NCBI GenBank assembly: GCA_027487015.1
Contig: JAIYEK010000187.1
Location: 1-54,660, forward strand
Length of the DNA stretch: 54,660 nt
DNA from: Erythrobacteraceae bacterium
GTDB lineage: Bacteria; Pseudomonadota; Alphaproteobacteria; Sphingomonadales; Sphingomonadaceae
Direction of reading: 5' to 3'
Positions 1,756 to 6,874 of this stretch are shown here, piece after piece. A model generated the notes under the pieces. The model searched no databases. It saw only the letters and a program-made list of their open reading frames with translations, and was not told the origin of the DNA. A program made the translations under genes and the position numbers. Numbering within the stretch: the stretch's first letter is position 1; the number at the start of each line of letters is the position of its first letter.

Positions 1756-2796
1756 TCAGTCCTGTCCCTCCATCAGCGCGTGCTTGCGGACGCAGTGGCG
1801 CAGCTGGTCGTAGGTCAGCCCGAGCGCGCGGGCGGTCTGGCGCTGGTTCCAGCGGTGCTTGCCCAGCGCATGGGCTAGGATCGCGCGCTCATGCGCATCG
1901 ACCGCGGCGCGCAGGTCCTCGATGTTGTCGAAATGGACGCTGGCAGGCGAAGGCGCGGCGGGGCCTCCTGTCGCGGCAGGCGCGGCGCTGGCGGCGCGGC
2001 GGTGCTCGGGCGGACGCGGGCGCCACGGGCTGTCGAAGGGATCGAACTGGACATGCGCGATCGGCATCTCGTCGTTCGCCCAGCGATAGACCGCGCGCTC
2101 GACCACGTTGCGCAGCTCGCGCACATTGCCGGGCCAAGGGTGATCCTCGAGCGCCTCCTTGATGTGGGTGGCAAAGCCCGGCCAGCGATCCCAATCAAGC
2201 TCGGCGGCCATGCGGCGGCCGAAATATTCGGCGAGCACGCCGATATCGCCCTCACGCACCCGCAGCGGGGGGAGCGTGATGACCTCAAAGCTCAGCCGGT
2301 CGAGCAGGTCGGCGCGGAACTCGCCTGACGCCGCCAACGCAGGGAGATCATCATTGGTCGCCGCGACGATCCGCACATCGACCCTGATCGGGCGCGAGGC
2401 GCCGATGCGGGTGACTTCGCCATATTCGACCGCGCGCAGCAGCCGCTCCTGCGCGCCCATGGAGAGTGTGCCGAGTTCATCGAGGAACAGCGTCCCGCGA
2501 TCGGCCTCTTCGAAGCGGCCCGCGCGTGACTTGGTGGCGCCGGTGAAGGCGCCCGCCTCGTGGCCGAACAACTCGGCCTCGATCAGGGTTTCGGGGAGCG
2601 CCGCGCAGTTCATGGTGACGAGCGGTTCGTCCCATCGGCTCGACAGGCGGTGAAGGCGTTCGGCGATCAGTTCTTTACCCGTGCCGCGTTCGCCGATCAC
2701 CAGCACGGGGCGGTTCATGGCCGCGGCGCGGCTGGCACGTTCGACCGCGTCGAGGAAGGCCCCGGATTGGCCGATGAACTGGCTCTCGAGCTTCAT
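1756..2796 (-). CDS. pspF: PspF-type sigma-54-dependent activator
   Basis: A 346-residue bacterial enhancer-binding protein. It has no N-terminal receiver or sensor domain, starting directly with the AAA+ ATPase domain as PspF does. Walker A is GERGTGKE (about residues 35-42), the sigma-54-contacting loop GAFTGA is intact, Walker B is GTLFLDEL, and the R-finger region follows. The C-terminal Fis-type helix-turn-helix is near residues 300-340 (RWNQRQTARALGLTYDQL). In known systems PspA binds and inhibits PspF until envelope stress. It is divergent from the psp operon and shares its control region, so autoregulation is likely. The start at 2796 was chosen because translation further upstream would run through the promoter region. 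Confidence 0.93.
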   Translation of the reverse strand: MKLESQFIGQSGAFLDAVERASRAAAMNRPVLVIGERGTGKELIAERLHRLSSRWDEPLVTMNCAALPETLIEAELFGHEAGAFTGATKSRAGRFEEADRGTLFLDELGTLSMGAQERLLRAVEYGEVTRIGASRPIRVDVRIVAATNDDLPALAASGEFRADLLDRLSFEVITLPPLRVREGDIGVLAEYFGRRMAAELDWDRWPGFATHIKEALEDHPWPGNVRELRNVVERAVYRWANDEMPIAHVQFDPFDSPWRPRPPEHRRAASAAPAATGGPAAPSPASVHFDNIEDLRAAVDAHERAILAHALGKHRWNQRQTARALGLTYDQLRHCVRKHALMEGQD

Positions 2797-2896: not shown

Positions 2897-2912
2897 TGGC
2901 ACGGCCCGTGCA
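2897..2912 (+). promoter_or_regulatory. Sigma-54 (-24/-12) promoter of the psp operon
   Basis: TGGCACGGCCCGTGCA matches the RpoN consensus, with GG (2898-2899) and GC (2910-2911) separated by exactly 10 bp. Transcription should start near 2922, leaving a short leader before the first operon gene. This fits the family rule that psp genes are transcribed by sigma-54 RNA polymerase with PspF. Confidence 0.88.
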
Positions 2913-2966: not shown

Positions 2967-3161
2967 ATGATCAACCGCAAAGCCAGTCAAGCCAGCCAGG
3001 CCAGCTTCTGGAACACCAAGCTCGGCCACGCCGCGATGGCCAGCATCGCCGCGATGGTGCTGATGATCGCGCTGTCCTCGCAGCTTCAGCCGGGCGCGGC
3101 CAACGCCGCCCCGCTCGCCCACCCGGCGAGCGAAGCCGGCGCCGTGATCGAGATCGCCTGA
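2967..3161 (+). CDS. Small single-span membrane protein heading the psp operon
   Basis: A 64-residue protein with a strong ribosome binding site (GGGGAGG, 6 nt before the ATG). Residues 1-20 are polar and positively charged. Residues 21-42 form one hydrophobic segment (AAMASIAAMVLMIALSSQL), and the tail is Ala/Pro rich. It is the first gene after the sigma-54 promoter and is followed with no gap by an open frame leading into pspA. I do not recognise the family. It could be an inner-membrane stress peptide, or a cleaved exported peptide, because AANAA resembles a signal-peptidase site. Confidence 0.6.
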   Translation: MINRKASQASQASFWNTKLGHAAMASIAAMVLMIALSSQLQPGAANAAPLAHPASEAGAVIEIA

Positions 3162-3162
3162 A

Positions 3163-3453
3163 GTGGCCGATCCCTTTGACCCCCTCGGGCCGGAGCGCCC
3201 CTCGCAGGACGTCCCCCCTGCCGACGCCGATCGCATCGCGGTACCCACGCGCAATGTCGATCTCGGCGATGCTCCGGCCCAACCCTCCCGTCTGCTGTCG
3301 GCCGGAAACCCCCTGTCGCGGCTCGACGCGGAAATCGAAGCCTTGCGCCGCAACCCGGGCAAGGCACAATCCGGCAGCCGCACCGACGAGCGGCACGACC
3401 CGCGAGTCGCACCCCTCGACCGCGTCAATTCGTTTCTCGATGGAGTAGCCTTC
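3163..3453 (+). other. Open 97-codon frame in phase with pspA
   Basis: A GTG at 3163, one base after the stop of the preceding gene, opens a frame that runs without a stop straight into pspA. Its codons have the same G/C-rich third positions as real genes here, and the peptide is Pro/Asp/Arg rich with one helical stretch (LSRLDAEIEALRR). It could be an N-terminal extension producing a 324-residue PspA, or a chance open leader. The canonical pspA start at 3454 has its own Shine-Dalgarno. Confidence 0.4.
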
Positions 3454-4137
3454 ATGGGCATTTTCAGCCGTACCCGCGACATCATTGCCGCCAACTTCAA
3501 CGACATGCTCGACAAGGCGGACGATCCTTCGAAGATGATCCGCATGATCATCCTCGAGATGGAGGAAACCCTGGTCGAAGTCCGCGCCAGCGCGGCGCGA
3601 ACCATCGCCGACCAGAAGGAGATGCATCGCCACTGCATGAAGCTCGACCGGCTCCAGGCCGACTGGGGCGAGAAAGCGCAGCTGGCGCTCAGCAAGGACC
3701 GCGAGGACCTCGCCCGTGCCGCGCTCGTCGAGAAGAAGAAGGCCGGCGACATGGCCGACCAGCTCAAGGCGGAAATCGCCGTGCTCGACGATGCTCTGCG
3801 CGCCTACGAGGAAGACATCGCCAAGCTGCAGCACCGCCTGCGCGAGGCCCGCAGCCGTCAGACCGCGATCGCCGCGCGCCTCGAAAGCGCCGAGAACCGC
3901 GTCAAGCTGCGCACCCTCATGAGCACCGAGCGCACGGATGAAGCGCTCGCCCGCTTCGACCAGCTCGAACGCCGCGTCGATTACGCCGAAGGCCGCGCCG
4001 ATGCGCTGCAGATCGCCGAGAACAAGACGCCGTCGCTTGCCGACGAGATCGCAGCGCTCGCCGGGTCGGACGCGATCGACGATGAACTCGCGGCCATGAA
4101 GAAGGCGCTCGGCAAGTCCGACGAAAAGGGGGAATAA
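3454..4137 (+). CDS. pspA: Phage shock protein A
   Basis: A 227-residue PspA/IM30 (ESCRT-III-related) protein, a peripheral inner-membrane protein that stabilises damaged membrane and inhibits PspF. The N-terminal amphipathic helix MGIFSRTRDIIAANFNDML is canonical and is followed by the conserved DKADDPSKMIRMIILEMEETL. The rest is long coiled coil up to about residue 190. The chosen start has GGAG 9 nt upstream and gives the usual family length. The frame stays open upstream to 3163, so a longer isoform cannot be excluded. pspB follows after 3 nt. Confidence 0.95.
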   Translation: MGIFSRTRDIIAANFNDMLDKADDPSKMIRMIILEMEETLVEVRASAARTIADQKEMHRHCMKLDRLQADWGEKAQLALSKDREDLARAALVEKKKAGDMADQLKAEIAVLDDALRAYEEDIAKLQHRLREARSRQTAIAARLESAENRVKLRTLMSTERTDEALARFDQLERRVDYAEGRADALQIAENKTPSLADEIAALAGSDAIDDELAAMKKALGKSDEKGE

Positions 4138-4140
4138 GCC

Positions 4141-4452
4141 ATGGAAGACGTGTTTCTGCCGATCATCATCGTCGGCATGCTGTTCATCGGCCTGCCCTGG
4201 GTAATCCTCCACTACCTCACCAAGTGGAAGACCGCCGCGACCATCACCAGTGACGACGAGGTGCTCCTCGAAGAGCTCTACAACCTCGCCCGCCGGCTCG
4301 ATGAGCGCATGGACACGGTCGAGCGGCTGGTCGCCTCGGACGACCCGAGCTTCGCCCCGGCCCGCCGCCTGATCGCCGATCATGCCAAGGACAATGAGCA
4401 GCTGCGCGAACTCGAAGCGCTGCTGGCCGAAAAGAAAGGAACCCGCCTGTGA
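4141..4452 (+). CDS. pspB: Phage shock protein B
   Basis: A 103-residue inner-membrane protein. One N-terminal membrane helix (about residues 5-28, LPIIIVGMLFIGLPWVILHY) is followed by a cytoplasmic helical region with LYNLARRLDERMDTVERLV, the PspB-type coiled coil. It is longer at the C terminus than the enterobacterial protein of about 74 residues. PspB and PspC sense envelope stress and relieve PspA inhibition of PspF. Its GTGA junction with pspC shows translational coupling. The downstream small proteins share its architecture. Confidence 0.88.
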   Translation: MEDVFLPIIIVGMLFIGLPWVILHYLTKWKTAATITSDDEVLLEELYNLARRLDERMDTVERLVASDDPSFAPARRLIADHAKDNEQLRELEALLAEKKGTRL

Positions 4453-4826
4453 ACAGCCCCCGCACCACGCTCTACCGTGACAAGCACAATGCCAAGCTGA
4501 TGGGCGTGTGCGCCGGGATCGCCGATTACACCGGGGTCAACGTCTTCTGGATCCGCCTGATGGCGTTCCTCTCGATGTGGCCCACGGGCGGCGCCTCGCT
4601 GCTGGTCTACTTCGTCGCCGGGTTCCTGCTCAACAAGAAGCCGCCCTACCTCTACCGCGACGAAAGCGAGCAGAAGTACTGGCAGGGCATCCGCCAGAGC
4701 CCCAAGCGCACCGCCCGCGAGATCCGCGCCAACTTCCGCGACATCGACCGGCGCCTCGCCGCGGTCGAAGCCCACTATGTCAGCAGCAACCCGCGCCTGA
4801 CCGCCGAGATCGAGCGGCTGCGCTAA
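4449..4826 (+). CDS. pspC: Phage shock protein C
   Basis: A 125-residue PspC-domain protein. It has the N-terminal motif LYRDKHNAKLMGVCAGIADY (about residues 8-27), then a long hydrophobic segment with WIRLMAFLSMWPTGGASLLVYFVAGFLL in several pieces. The C-terminal cytoplasmic part is charged and helical, ending in RLAAVEAHY. It starts at a GTG overlapping the pspB stop. With PspB it forms the membrane sensor that recruits PspA away from PspF. The C-terminal helix resembles the coiled-coil block of the proteins encoded downstream. Confidence 0.92.
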   Translation: MNSPRTTLYRDKHNAKLMGVCAGIADYTGVNVFWIRLMAFLSMWPTGGASLLVYFVAGFLLNKKPPYLYRDESEQKYWQGIRQSPKRTAREIRANFRDIDRRLAAVEAHYVSSNPRLTAEIERLR

Positions 4827-4858: not shown

Positions 4859-5173
4859 ATGGACGTAGCACAACTGGGCGTCATGATCCCGATCATCGCC
4901 CTGATGATCCCGATCGTCGCGATCTGGACCAAGCACCAGCAGAAGATGGCCGAAATGCAGGTCGGCGCCACCGCCGAACAGACCGCCGAAAAGGCCGCGC
5001 AATATGTCGGCCAGATCAAGCGGCTCGAAGATCGCGTGCAGGTGCTCGAACGCATCGTCACCGACCGCGGCTACGACATCGCCACCCAGATCGAGGCGCT
5101 GCGCGACCAGCGGCGGGTGGATGAAATGGACGCCGGCATCCCGCTCGGCCTCGAGAAGAAGGAGCGCGTGTGA
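4859..5173 (+). CDS. PspB-like small membrane protein 1
   Basis: A 104-residue protein. Residues 5-24 form a membrane helix (QLGVMIPIIALMIPIVAIWT). Next comes a polar stretch and then a coiled coil with RLEDRVQVLERIVTDRGYDI (about residues 60-80) and QIEALR. This coiled-coil block recurs in the next genes and resembles the C-terminal half of PspB. It sits 32 nt after pspC and overlaps the next gene (TGATG). It is likely a membrane-anchored accessory of the stress response; the exact function is unknown. Confidence 0.75.
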   Translation: MDVAQLGVMIPIIALMIPIVAIWTKHQQKMAEMQVGATAEQTAEKAAQYVGQIKRLEDRVQVLERIVTDRGYDIATQIEALRDQRRVDEMDAGIPLGLEKKERV

Positions 5174-5484
5174 TGTTTCATGATGGCCCCGGTTTCATCG
5201 CCGGCATTGTCCTGATCTGCACCATGGGCTGGGTGTTCAACAACTGGATCCGCGCCCGCCACGGCTACCCGCTCGAAGACGAGTGGGGCGGCAAGACCGT
5301 AAAGCCCGACCAGGCTGAGACCCTGCGCCTCCAGACCGAGAACAAGGCGCTGCACGACCGGCTCGACACGATGCAGGACCGTCTGGTCGTGCTCGAGAAG
5401 ATTGTCACTGACCGCAGCTATTCGCTCGCCTCCGAGATCGAGGCGCTGCGCGAAACGCCGAGCCTGAGCAAGGAGCGCGTGTAA
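5173..5484 (+). CDS. PspB-like small membrane protein 2
   Basis: A 103-residue protein with an N-terminal membrane helix (FIAGIVLICTMGWVFNNWI, about residues 8-26). Then comes a conserved HGYPLEDEWGG segment shared with protein 3, and a long coiled coil ending in RLVVLEKIVTDRSYSLASEI. The start at 5173 overlaps the previous stop and has AAGGAG at a good distance. It belongs to the tandem family; proteins 2 and 3 are the closest pair by their GYPLE-W-G block, so they are probably a late duplication. Confidence 0.75.
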   Translation: MFHDGPGFIAGIVLICTMGWVFNNWIRARHGYPLEDEWGGKTVKPDQAETLRLQTENKALHDRLDTMQDRLVVLEKIVTDRSYSLASEIEALRETPSLSKERV

Positions 5485-5843
5485 TGGATGAGTTCAACGC
5501 CATCCTGCCTTATGTCGGGTGGATCATCGCAGGGGCCTTCACGCTGGGCGCGGCGGGCATCCTGACCTCGTTCCAGACGACCCGGATGAAGATCAAGAAC
5601 GGCTACCCGCTCGAAGGCATGTGGGGCCAATCGCTGAAGCCGGGCTCGGACAAGCACACCGCCGAACGCGTCACCCTGCTCACTCAGGAAAACGCCCAGC
5701 TGCGCGCCGAACTCGGCAGCATCAAGGACCGGCTCGCCAACGTCGAACGGATCGTCACCGACGGCGGCTATCACCTCGGCAACGAGATCGACGCGCTGCG
5801 CGAACGTGCGCTCGAAGGTCTCCAGGACAAGGGCAAGGCATAA
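5484..5843 (+). CDS. PspB-like small membrane protein 3
   Basis: A 119-residue protein with one membrane helix (YVGWIIAGAFTLGAAGILTS, about residues 9-28), the NGYPLEGMWGQSLKPG block shared with protein 2, and a coiled coil with RLANVERIVTDGGYHLGNEI and DALRERA. The start codon overlaps the previous stop (TAATG) and has AAGGAG upstream. The function is not known. The architecture suggests an inner-membrane anchor with a cytoplasmic helix that could pair with PspA, PspB, PspC or its own paralogues. Confidence 0.75.
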   Translation: MDEFNAILPYVGWIIAGAFTLGAAGILTSFQTTRMKIKNGYPLEGMWGQSLKPGSDKHTAERVTLLTQENAQLRAELGSIKDRLANVERIVTDGGYHLGNEIDALRERALEGLQDKGKA

Positions 5844-6139
5844 TGGGCGAGATGGTGGTCATCGCAATGGCGATTGTCGCAATCGTGCTGATTGCCGGCG
5901 TGAGCATTAACGGCATCGTCGACAAGGTGATGCAGGCCAAGCGCCAGCGCCTCGAGATGGAGGCCGGCAAGCCGGGTCCTGAGCTGCGCGAGATCGCCGA
6001 ACGCCAACAAATGTTCGAGGATCGCCTGCGCGTGCTCGAACGCATCGCCACCGACCGCGGCAGCCTGCTTGCCGACGAGATCGAGGCGCTGCGCCTCAGC
6101 GCGGACAAGGCCATCGGCAAGGAGCACGTGCAGCAATGA
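5843..6139 (+). CDS. PspB-like small membrane protein 4
   Basis: A 98-residue protein. The first 27 residues are a membrane helix (VVIAMAIVAIVLIAGVSI). A basic stretch follows (QAKRQRLEME), then the coiled-coil block MFEDRLRVLERIATDRGSLL and DEIEALRLS. The start overlaps the previous stop (TAATG) and the stop overlaps the next start (ATGA), so translation is coupled on both sides. It is the copy whose coiled-coil block is nearest to those of proteins 1 and 5. Confidence 0.75.
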   Translation: MGEMVVIAMAIVAIVLIAGVSINGIVDKVMQAKRQRLEMEAGKPGPELREIAERQQMFEDRLRVLERIATDRGSLLADEIEALRLSADKAIGKEHVQQ

Positions 6140-6450
6140 GCAGCTGGGCGATCGTTGCCCTCGTGGGCATCCTCATCTGGGGCGTCGTGCAGATCGCACG
6201 CGCCCGCGCCGGGATCGTCACCGACGAGGACGGCAACCAGAAGTATATCGCTCCCGAAAATGGGGGCAGCCGGGCCGAGCTGGAAGCGACGCGCCGCGAG
6301 GTCGAGACCCTGCGCGAACGGGTGAAGGTGCTCGAACGCATCGCCACCGACGCCAACACCGGCGACGCGCGCGAACAGGCGCGGATCGCTGCCGAAATCG
6401 AAGCGCTGCGGGGCCTGCCTGCGGCCCGAACGGAAGGAACGGACCAATGA
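6136..6450 (+). CDS. PspB-like small membrane protein 5
   Basis: A 104-residue protein with an N-terminal membrane helix (WAIVALVGILIWGVVQIA, residues 4-21). A linker contains DEDGNQKYIAPENGG. The coiled coil has LRERVKVLERIATDANTGD and ends in AAEIEALRGL. Compared with its neighbours it carries an insertion between the ERIATD and EIEALR parts. ATGA junctions at both ends couple it to genes 4 and 6. Confidence 0.74.
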   Translation: MSSWAIVALVGILIWGVVQIARARAGIVTDEDGNQKYIAPENGGSRAELEATRREVETLRERVKVLERIATDANTGDAREQARIAAEIEALRGLPAARTEGTDQ

Positions 6451-6701
6451 CGACTGTTCTTCTCGACCCCACCCTGGTGCTGACCGCGGGGCTGCTCGTG
6501 GGAATCATCGTGCTCACCGGGGCAGCCTTGCGCGCCTGGCAGGGGTGGCTTGAACTCAAGCGCTCGGAACTCGAACGCGTGGCCACGGGCCGCAGCAGCA
6601 GCGAGGAAGGCTCAGGCTTCGGCACCGCGCGGATCGAGCTTGCCGACCTCAAGGAACGCATCCGCAAGCTGGAAGCGATCGCCAGCGGGGTCGAATTGTG
6701 A
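6447..6701 (+). CDS. Small membrane protein 6 of the psp operon
   Basis: An 84-residue protein with one membrane helix (LVLTAGLLVGIIVLTGAAL, about residues 9-27) and a charged helical tail ending LKERIRKLEAIASGVEL. The tail keeps the L-ERI-KLEAIA pattern of the other copies, but the EIEALR part is missing. It looks like a shortened member of the same family. It is coupled by ATGA upstream and GTGA downstream. Confidence 0.7.
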   Translation: MTTVLLDPTLVLTAGLLVGIIVLTGAALRAWQGWLELKRSELERVATGRSSSEEGSGFGTARIELADLKERIRKLEAIASGVEL

Positions 6702-6874
6702 GCGGCCCGCGCACCACCGCCGCCCAGGCCGGCATCGGCCTTGGCAGCGCGATCGCGGTGGCGATCAGCTGGAGCCTCCACAAGTCGATCATCTGGGCGG
6801 CAGTCCACGGCTTCCTGAGCTGGTTTTACGTGATCTACTATGCGCTGACCCGGCCGGGCGGCATCGGCGGGTAA
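6698..6874 (+). CDS. Small membrane protein 7, last psp operon gene
   Basis: A 58-residue protein starting at a GTG that overlaps the previous stop (GTGA). It has two short hydrophobic stretches, GIGLGSAIAVAISWSL (about 13-28) and a Trp/Tyr-rich one ending FYVIYYAL (about 32-51), and the end is PGGIGG. It lacks the coiled coil of genes 1-6. I do not recognise the family. The tight junction and GC-rich third positions support it as a real gene. No terminator hairpin was seen before sufE. Confidence 0.62.
   Translation: MSGPRTTAAQAGIGLGSAIAVAISWSLHKSIIWAAVHGFLSWFYVIYYALTRPGGIGG

Follow-up and report, generated by a model that had tools for sequence, protein, structure and literature searches.

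How PspB and PspC sense damage, and how the hand-over to PspA takes place, is still debated, with differing models in the literature (PMC3068692, PMC5596341). In E. coli, interaction with PspA requires the leucine zipper of PspC (PMC3068692). As for additional sensor-like genes, the accessible part of Ravi et al. 2024 (PMC11237479) devotes one line to ‘PspB duplicates’ in a psp operon (accession AOL22920.1) and notes a fusion of PspC to a divergent PspB. We found no expression, interaction or mutant data for sphingomonad psp systems in the open literature.

Here we analyse a psp locus of an Erythrobacteraceae bacterium (contig JAIYEK010000187.1 of assembly GCA_027487015.1; the whole stretch of 54,660 nucleotides is hereafter referred to as the window). 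As read from the window sequence, seven same-strand open reading frames, o1–o7, follow pspABC at positions 4859–6874. The features of the locus are as follows, with slots and groups as defined in the family survey below:

1756..2796, − strand: divergent pspF-like sigma54 activator (open reading frame and AAA+/GAFTGA motif read from the sequence)
2897..2912, + strand: sigma54-type −24/−12 site TGGCACGGCCCGTGCA (pattern scan)
3454..4137, + strand: pspA (PF04012, E 2.9e-37)
4141..4452, + strand: pspB (PF06667, E 1.3e-21; TIGR02976, 86.7 bits, passing the cut-off of 51.7)
4449..4826, + strand: pspC with C-terminal tail RDIDRRLAAVEAHYVSSNPRLTAEIERLR (TIGR02978, 123 bits, passing the cut-off of 104)
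4859..5173, + strand: o1, slot 1, group C1; membrane helix, coil and EIEALR-type tail (TIGR02976 PspB, E 2.6e-7, below cut-off)
5173..5484, + strand: o2, slot 2, group C0 (profile kinship; orthologue clade of 34 leaves)
5484..5843, + strand: o3, slot 3, group C0 (orthologues in 59 of 81 loci)
5843..6139, + strand: o4, slot 4, group C1 (the most variable slot)
6136..6450, + strand: o5, slot 5, group C2, a type close to free-standing relatives (slot 5 in 67 of 81 loci, group C2 in 77 of 81)
6447..6701, + strand: o6, slot 6, group C3, terminal subunit family (71–72 of 81 loci)
6698..6874, + strand: o7, a hydrophobic membrane protein of 58 aa with no relation to the coil proteins (by pattern, in 7 of 81 loci)

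The original prediction, made from the window alone, described seven small coupled genes after pspABC, and both the positions of the open reading frames and their overlaps bear this out: start and stop codons overlap by 1 or 4 bases at each o1–o7 junction, the exception being o1, which lies 32 bases behind pspC. Within the genus, 83 of 89 junctions are such 1- or 4-base overlaps. In o1 and o2, the codons for the C-terminal KERV (5150–5176 and 5470–5487) contain AAGGAG just 5′ of the next start; we therefore prefer to read these shared ends as overlap with a ribosome-binding site, and discarded the idea of a common peptide tag.

Upstream of the array, a gene for a hydrophobic 64-aa leader protein (2967..3161, + strand) is located between the sigma54-type site and pspA. 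It can be recognised in 25 of the 81 loci, carries the motifs FW(N/S)(T/S)KLG and FW.(T/S)KLG.A..ASIAAM, and is possibly what sphingomonads have in place of PspG, PspD or a similar small Psp protein. The pspA frame is itself open upstream as far as a GTG at 3163 (3163–3453, ~97 codons before the usual MGIF start). Conservation of this extension throughout the genus (NPLGPER, RLDEEIEALRR, NSFLDGVAF) follows the pattern of a coding sequence, and, as in the array tails, an EIEALR motif is present; the extension may represent a long PspA isoform. A second, more distant PspA/IM30 protein is encoded away from the psp operon (L003, contig C266 of G000).

A plan common to five of the genes had been predicted, and the sequences of o1–o5 agree with it: each combines one N-terminal membrane helix with a coil bearing LE(R/K)I(V/A)TD (VERIVTD in o3) and (E/Q)I(E/D)ALR, the pairs being LERIVTD/QIEALR in o1, LEKIVTD/EIEALR in o2, VERIVTD/EIDALR in o3 and LERIATD/EIEALR in both o4 and o5. 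The sixth gene had been taken for a shortened version of the same plan. Instead, o6, which has a related coil without the EIEALR tail and a strongly conserved C-terminus (RIELADLKERIRKLEAIASGVEL), belongs to a separate conserved family (C3) that occurs in 71–72 of the 81 loci and is always last. The seventh gene was correctly described as lacking the coil: o7 is an unrelated 58-aa membrane protein without a Pfam match, whose relatives were found by pattern in 7 of 81 loci, gene walks adding a few more copies. In orthologue comparisons of o1–o6, codon position 3 is more variable than positions 1 and 2, and we therefore regard these as real genes. By hydropathy and charge across 353 members, the C-terminal side is the more positive one in 99 of 99 C1 and 71 of 72 C3 proteins, and this charge distribution, by the positive-inside rule, puts the predicted coil in the cytoplasm. 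An AlphaFold2 model of o1, of moderate confidence (pLDDT 74), has a membrane helix (residues 4–35), a break and a long helix (39–91). Solved structures yielded nothing useful, the matches being prefoldin, a synthetic coil and one unrelated weak match.

To place the array in its family, we surveyed 80 psp loci of the same GTDB family, 20 from the same genus and 60 from 60 other genera, which together with the window gives 81; named relatives of the best-matching loci include Erythrobacter, Porphyrobacter, Qipengyuania and Citromicrobium, with their allies. Coil genes lie on the same strand behind pspABC in all 81. Gene number in sphingomonad psp operons, proposed earlier as something to survey, is one to seven array genes in every locus surveyed, mostly 4 or 5 as counted with the coil model. 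The 354 members fall into four groups, C0 (o2, o3), C1 (o1, o4), C2 (o5) and C3 (o6), and 331 of them occupy six slots: o1, o2, o3, o4-like, o5-like and o6. Gene order is strongly conserved: 585 gene pairs follow the slot order versus 14 that do not, and shuffled orders never exceed 58%. C3 is the last member in all 71 loci that have it, immediately preceded by slot 5 in 64 of 64 cases.

The original prediction saw in the array a tandem expansion by repeated duplication. As a statement about recent events this does not hold: only one of the 354 members finds its best match within its own genome, the slots are orthologous from locus to locus, and their order is conserved. In the tree, slots 1, 2, 3, 5 and 6 form near-pure clades (support 0.90, 0.84, 0.32, 0.92 and 0.996, respectively), with slot 4 members mixed. 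Recent duplication or gene conversion as the main force was likewise rejected, as codon sharing in the genus is barely higher within genomes (0.57) than between them (0.55), and lower than between orthologues (0.61). As judged by sequence, the array genes are ancient, differentiated paralogues rather than recent copies. Given the orthologous slots, the conserved order and the lack of strong gene conversion, copy number varies mainly through loss and occasional gain in an old, ordered set.

Whether the array proteins are kin to PspB had rested on coil similarity, which we replaced with full-length profile comparison with controls; a coil-only HMM scored PspA about as high as PspB, and coil similarity alone was therefore dropped as evidence. 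Profile–profile comparison returned 99.6% for C0–C1, 99.3% for C0–C2 and 98.9% for C1–C2, and 95% and 90% for C1–C3 and C2–C3, respectively. Against PspB the values were 91% for C0, 90% for C1, 33% for C2 and 0.4% for C3; against the second helix plus tail of PspC they were 94%, 90%, 92% and 0.3% in the same order, and against the PspC tail profile alone 95% (C0), 88% (C1), 92.5% (C2) and 0.2% (C3). Control profiles reached at most 18% (PspA coil) and 4.7% (FtsB, another one-helix coil protein). Real profiles scored 27–131 as compared to heptad-shuffled maxima of 14–25, and reversed profiles also fell below the real ones. As the E-values of these comparisons are not calibrated against a database, it is the controls that carry the kinship argument, and since the scores between array families lie far above the heptad-shuffled and FtsB controls, the array genes are paralogous. 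C3 matches only the other array groups, with no direct kinship to PspB or PspC.

The relation to PspB thus appears real but faint, as far as sequence comparison goes, and the last helix and C-terminal tail of PspC match equally well or better. It appears to be visible only from family to family: in pairwise comparison, the window’s own PspB gives no clear signal with the C1 profile (4%), and the window’s own PspC tail gives 30%. The same coil-and-tail plan is found in all 81 PspC proteins (compare RDIDRRLAAVEAHYVSSNPRLTAEIERLR in the window with KRLEDRVQVLERIVTDRGYDIATQIEALR in o1). Against the PspB models, o1 scores 30.8 bits in NCBIfam (cut-off 51.7) and 19.7 in Pfam (cut-off 25.6), and o2–o6 score lower or not at all; among 20 members, o1 and five others have sub-threshold TIGR02976 matches. 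No o1–o7 protein matches the PspC core domain (PF04024), and among the proteins scanned no extra gene passes the cut-off of any NCBIfam or Pfam model. We therefore refer to the array as PspB/PspC-tail-related, not as PspB. Of the two predicted relationships, that of the genes to one another is clear for C0–C2 (98.9–99.6%); the resemblance of the coil to PspB is seen at the family level for C0 and C1 (90–91%), is much lower for C2 (33%) and near zero for C3 (0.4%), gives no clear signal with the window’s PspB taken alone, and is equalled or surpassed by that to the PspC tail.

The predicted tie to the psp operon is upheld by the presence of the array in 81 of 81 loci, by joint loss with pspA in 10 genomes and by the upstream sigma54-type site. 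In a pattern scan, 65 of 81 loci have a site of this type upstream of pspA; downstream of pspC there are only 8 such matches in all 81 loci together. Between pspC and o7 there is no forward terminator-like site; the single weak match is inside o7 at 6808. When we tested 12 family genomes without PspB, 10 also lacked PspA and every array gene. In G106, the contig ends just before pspC. The near-complete genome G082 (L327, 2305–3907) has no pspB but keeps pspA, two array genes and a pspC that encodes the core and lacks the tail; this single case fits the expectation for array proteins able to replace PspB and the PspC tail. Among the family genomes examined, array genes are retained only beside pspA or pspC. 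Taken together, these patterns make a strong sequence-level case for a link between the array and Psp.

The module also occurs outside the family. In other families of the order, nearly every matching genome has exactly one array-type gene, usually free-standing; in the rest of the class such matches are rare, and free-standing one-helix coil proteins of the array type reappear in other families of the phylum, presumably gammaproteobacteria. Two loci of one other family (L210, 2974–4009; L211, 3071–4088) contain pspA-pspB-pspC, a second, tail-less pspC and then one array-type gene, a possible intermediate stage. From this distribution the module is judged to be older than the array, and the simplest path would be the entry of a free-standing gene into the psp operon, followed by duplication and differentiation at the root of the family. 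Since free-standing copies occur away from psp, binding of Psp proteins is not the only possible job of the module.

We propose that the array encodes coil subunits of the Psp complex, an ancient and colinear set anchored in the membrane and acting as extra PspB/PspC-tail partners for PspA, and assign this reading a probability of roughly 0.6. It starts from what is directly seen: which genes are present and in what order, their orthology and coding constraint, the profile kinship, the joint loss with pspA and a conserved upstream sigma54-type site. Each array protein would cross the membrane once, through an N-terminal helix whose periplasmic end is short, and would carry its coil in the cytoplasm; most would end in an L-x-x-E-I-x-x-L-R tail, as PspC does. 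A single sigma54/PspF promoter would drive the array genes along with pspA, pspB and pspC, and the array proteins would most likely assemble with PspB and PspC in the membrane. The cytoplasmic coils could then give PspA, or the PspC tail, additional places at which to dock or be held, with the slot-specific membrane, linker and N-terminal segments perhaps responding separately to membrane disturbances or setting the threshold of PspF release; in this way the coils, as further arms comparable to the PspC leucine zipper, may tune or diversify PspA capture. An ordered row kept by nearly all relatives in the family implies that the stress-sensing complex is probably built from far more subunit types than the textbook E. 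coli version. A bolder form of the proposal, which we put forward tentatively and hold to be somewhat short of an even bet, is that the sphingomonad Psp sensor is a combinatorial membrane complex, in which as many as seven non-redundant coil subunits, colinear and descended from a free-standing membrane-coil protein, feed separate inputs into PspA and, as in G082, can substitute for both PspB and the tail of PspC.

Other readings share part of this evidence. That the coils template or anchor ESCRT-III-like PspA assemblies at the damaged membrane, with little signalling to PspF, would suit the predicted membrane anchor and cytoplasmic coil, the many ordered subunits, fit for a structural role, and the G082 genome, which keeps array genes with pspA despite losing pspB and the PspC tail; the kinship, however, points to the regulatory pair PspB/PspC, and we consider such scaffolds unlikely. 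The array could instead consist of additional PspB genes that are functionally redundant and whose number affects dosage only, as the sub-threshold TIGR02976 matches of o1 and five others of 20 and the ‘PspB duplicates’ in the accessible part of Ravi et al. 2024 (PMC11237479) might suggest. Yet differentiated, orthologous slots in an order kept family-wide do not resemble redundant dosage copies, C0 and C2 match the PspC tail better than PspB, and C3 does not match PspB at all, which makes this reading improbable. Finally, the free-standing relatives away from psp in other families would agree with small membrane proteins that form an envelope system of their own, sharing the psp promoter but not the Psp complex; the profile kinship with PspB/PspC, the 10 genomes in which array and pspA are lost together, and the retention of array genes only beside pspA or pspC in the family genomes examined render it very improbable.

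A whole bacterial family runs its psp operon with about twice the textbook number of genes. It supplies natural variants in which the PspB/PspC coil module has been split, multiplied, ordered and, apparently at least once, swapped, and single-gene deletions in the array would offer a direct test of the PspA-binding part versus the sensing part.

As for what was described before, the accessible part of Ravi et al. 2024 (PMC11237479) already contains extra PspB-like psp genes and a modular PspB–PspC link; the slots, order, orthology, tail match, co-loss and origin are absent from that part of the account, as is the array from the accessible part of the survey of PspA and PspC by Popp et al. 2022 (PMC9239133). 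PspB duplicates in a psp operon are thus known, and in the literature searched we did not find the ordering into slots, the conservation of the array throughout the family, the tail match, the co-loss, the substitution case or the free-standing origin. The array proteins resemble PspB (PF06667/TIGR02976) in having one N-terminal membrane helix and a predicted cytoplasmic coil, in their psp operon position and in their size (~75–120 aa), but differ from it in scoring below the family cut-offs, in their variable linkers, in the LxxEIxxLR tail that most of them carry and in forming an ordered set. With the C-terminal tail of PspC (TIGR02978, positions 82–121) they share the coil, the T(D/S) and the LxxEIExLR end, although they are separate one-helix proteins without the PspC core domain. 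The free-standing proteobacterial membrane-helix and coil proteins (for example L213, L217, L334 and L337) have the same module, closest to C1 and C2, but are usually encoded by a single gene away from psp.
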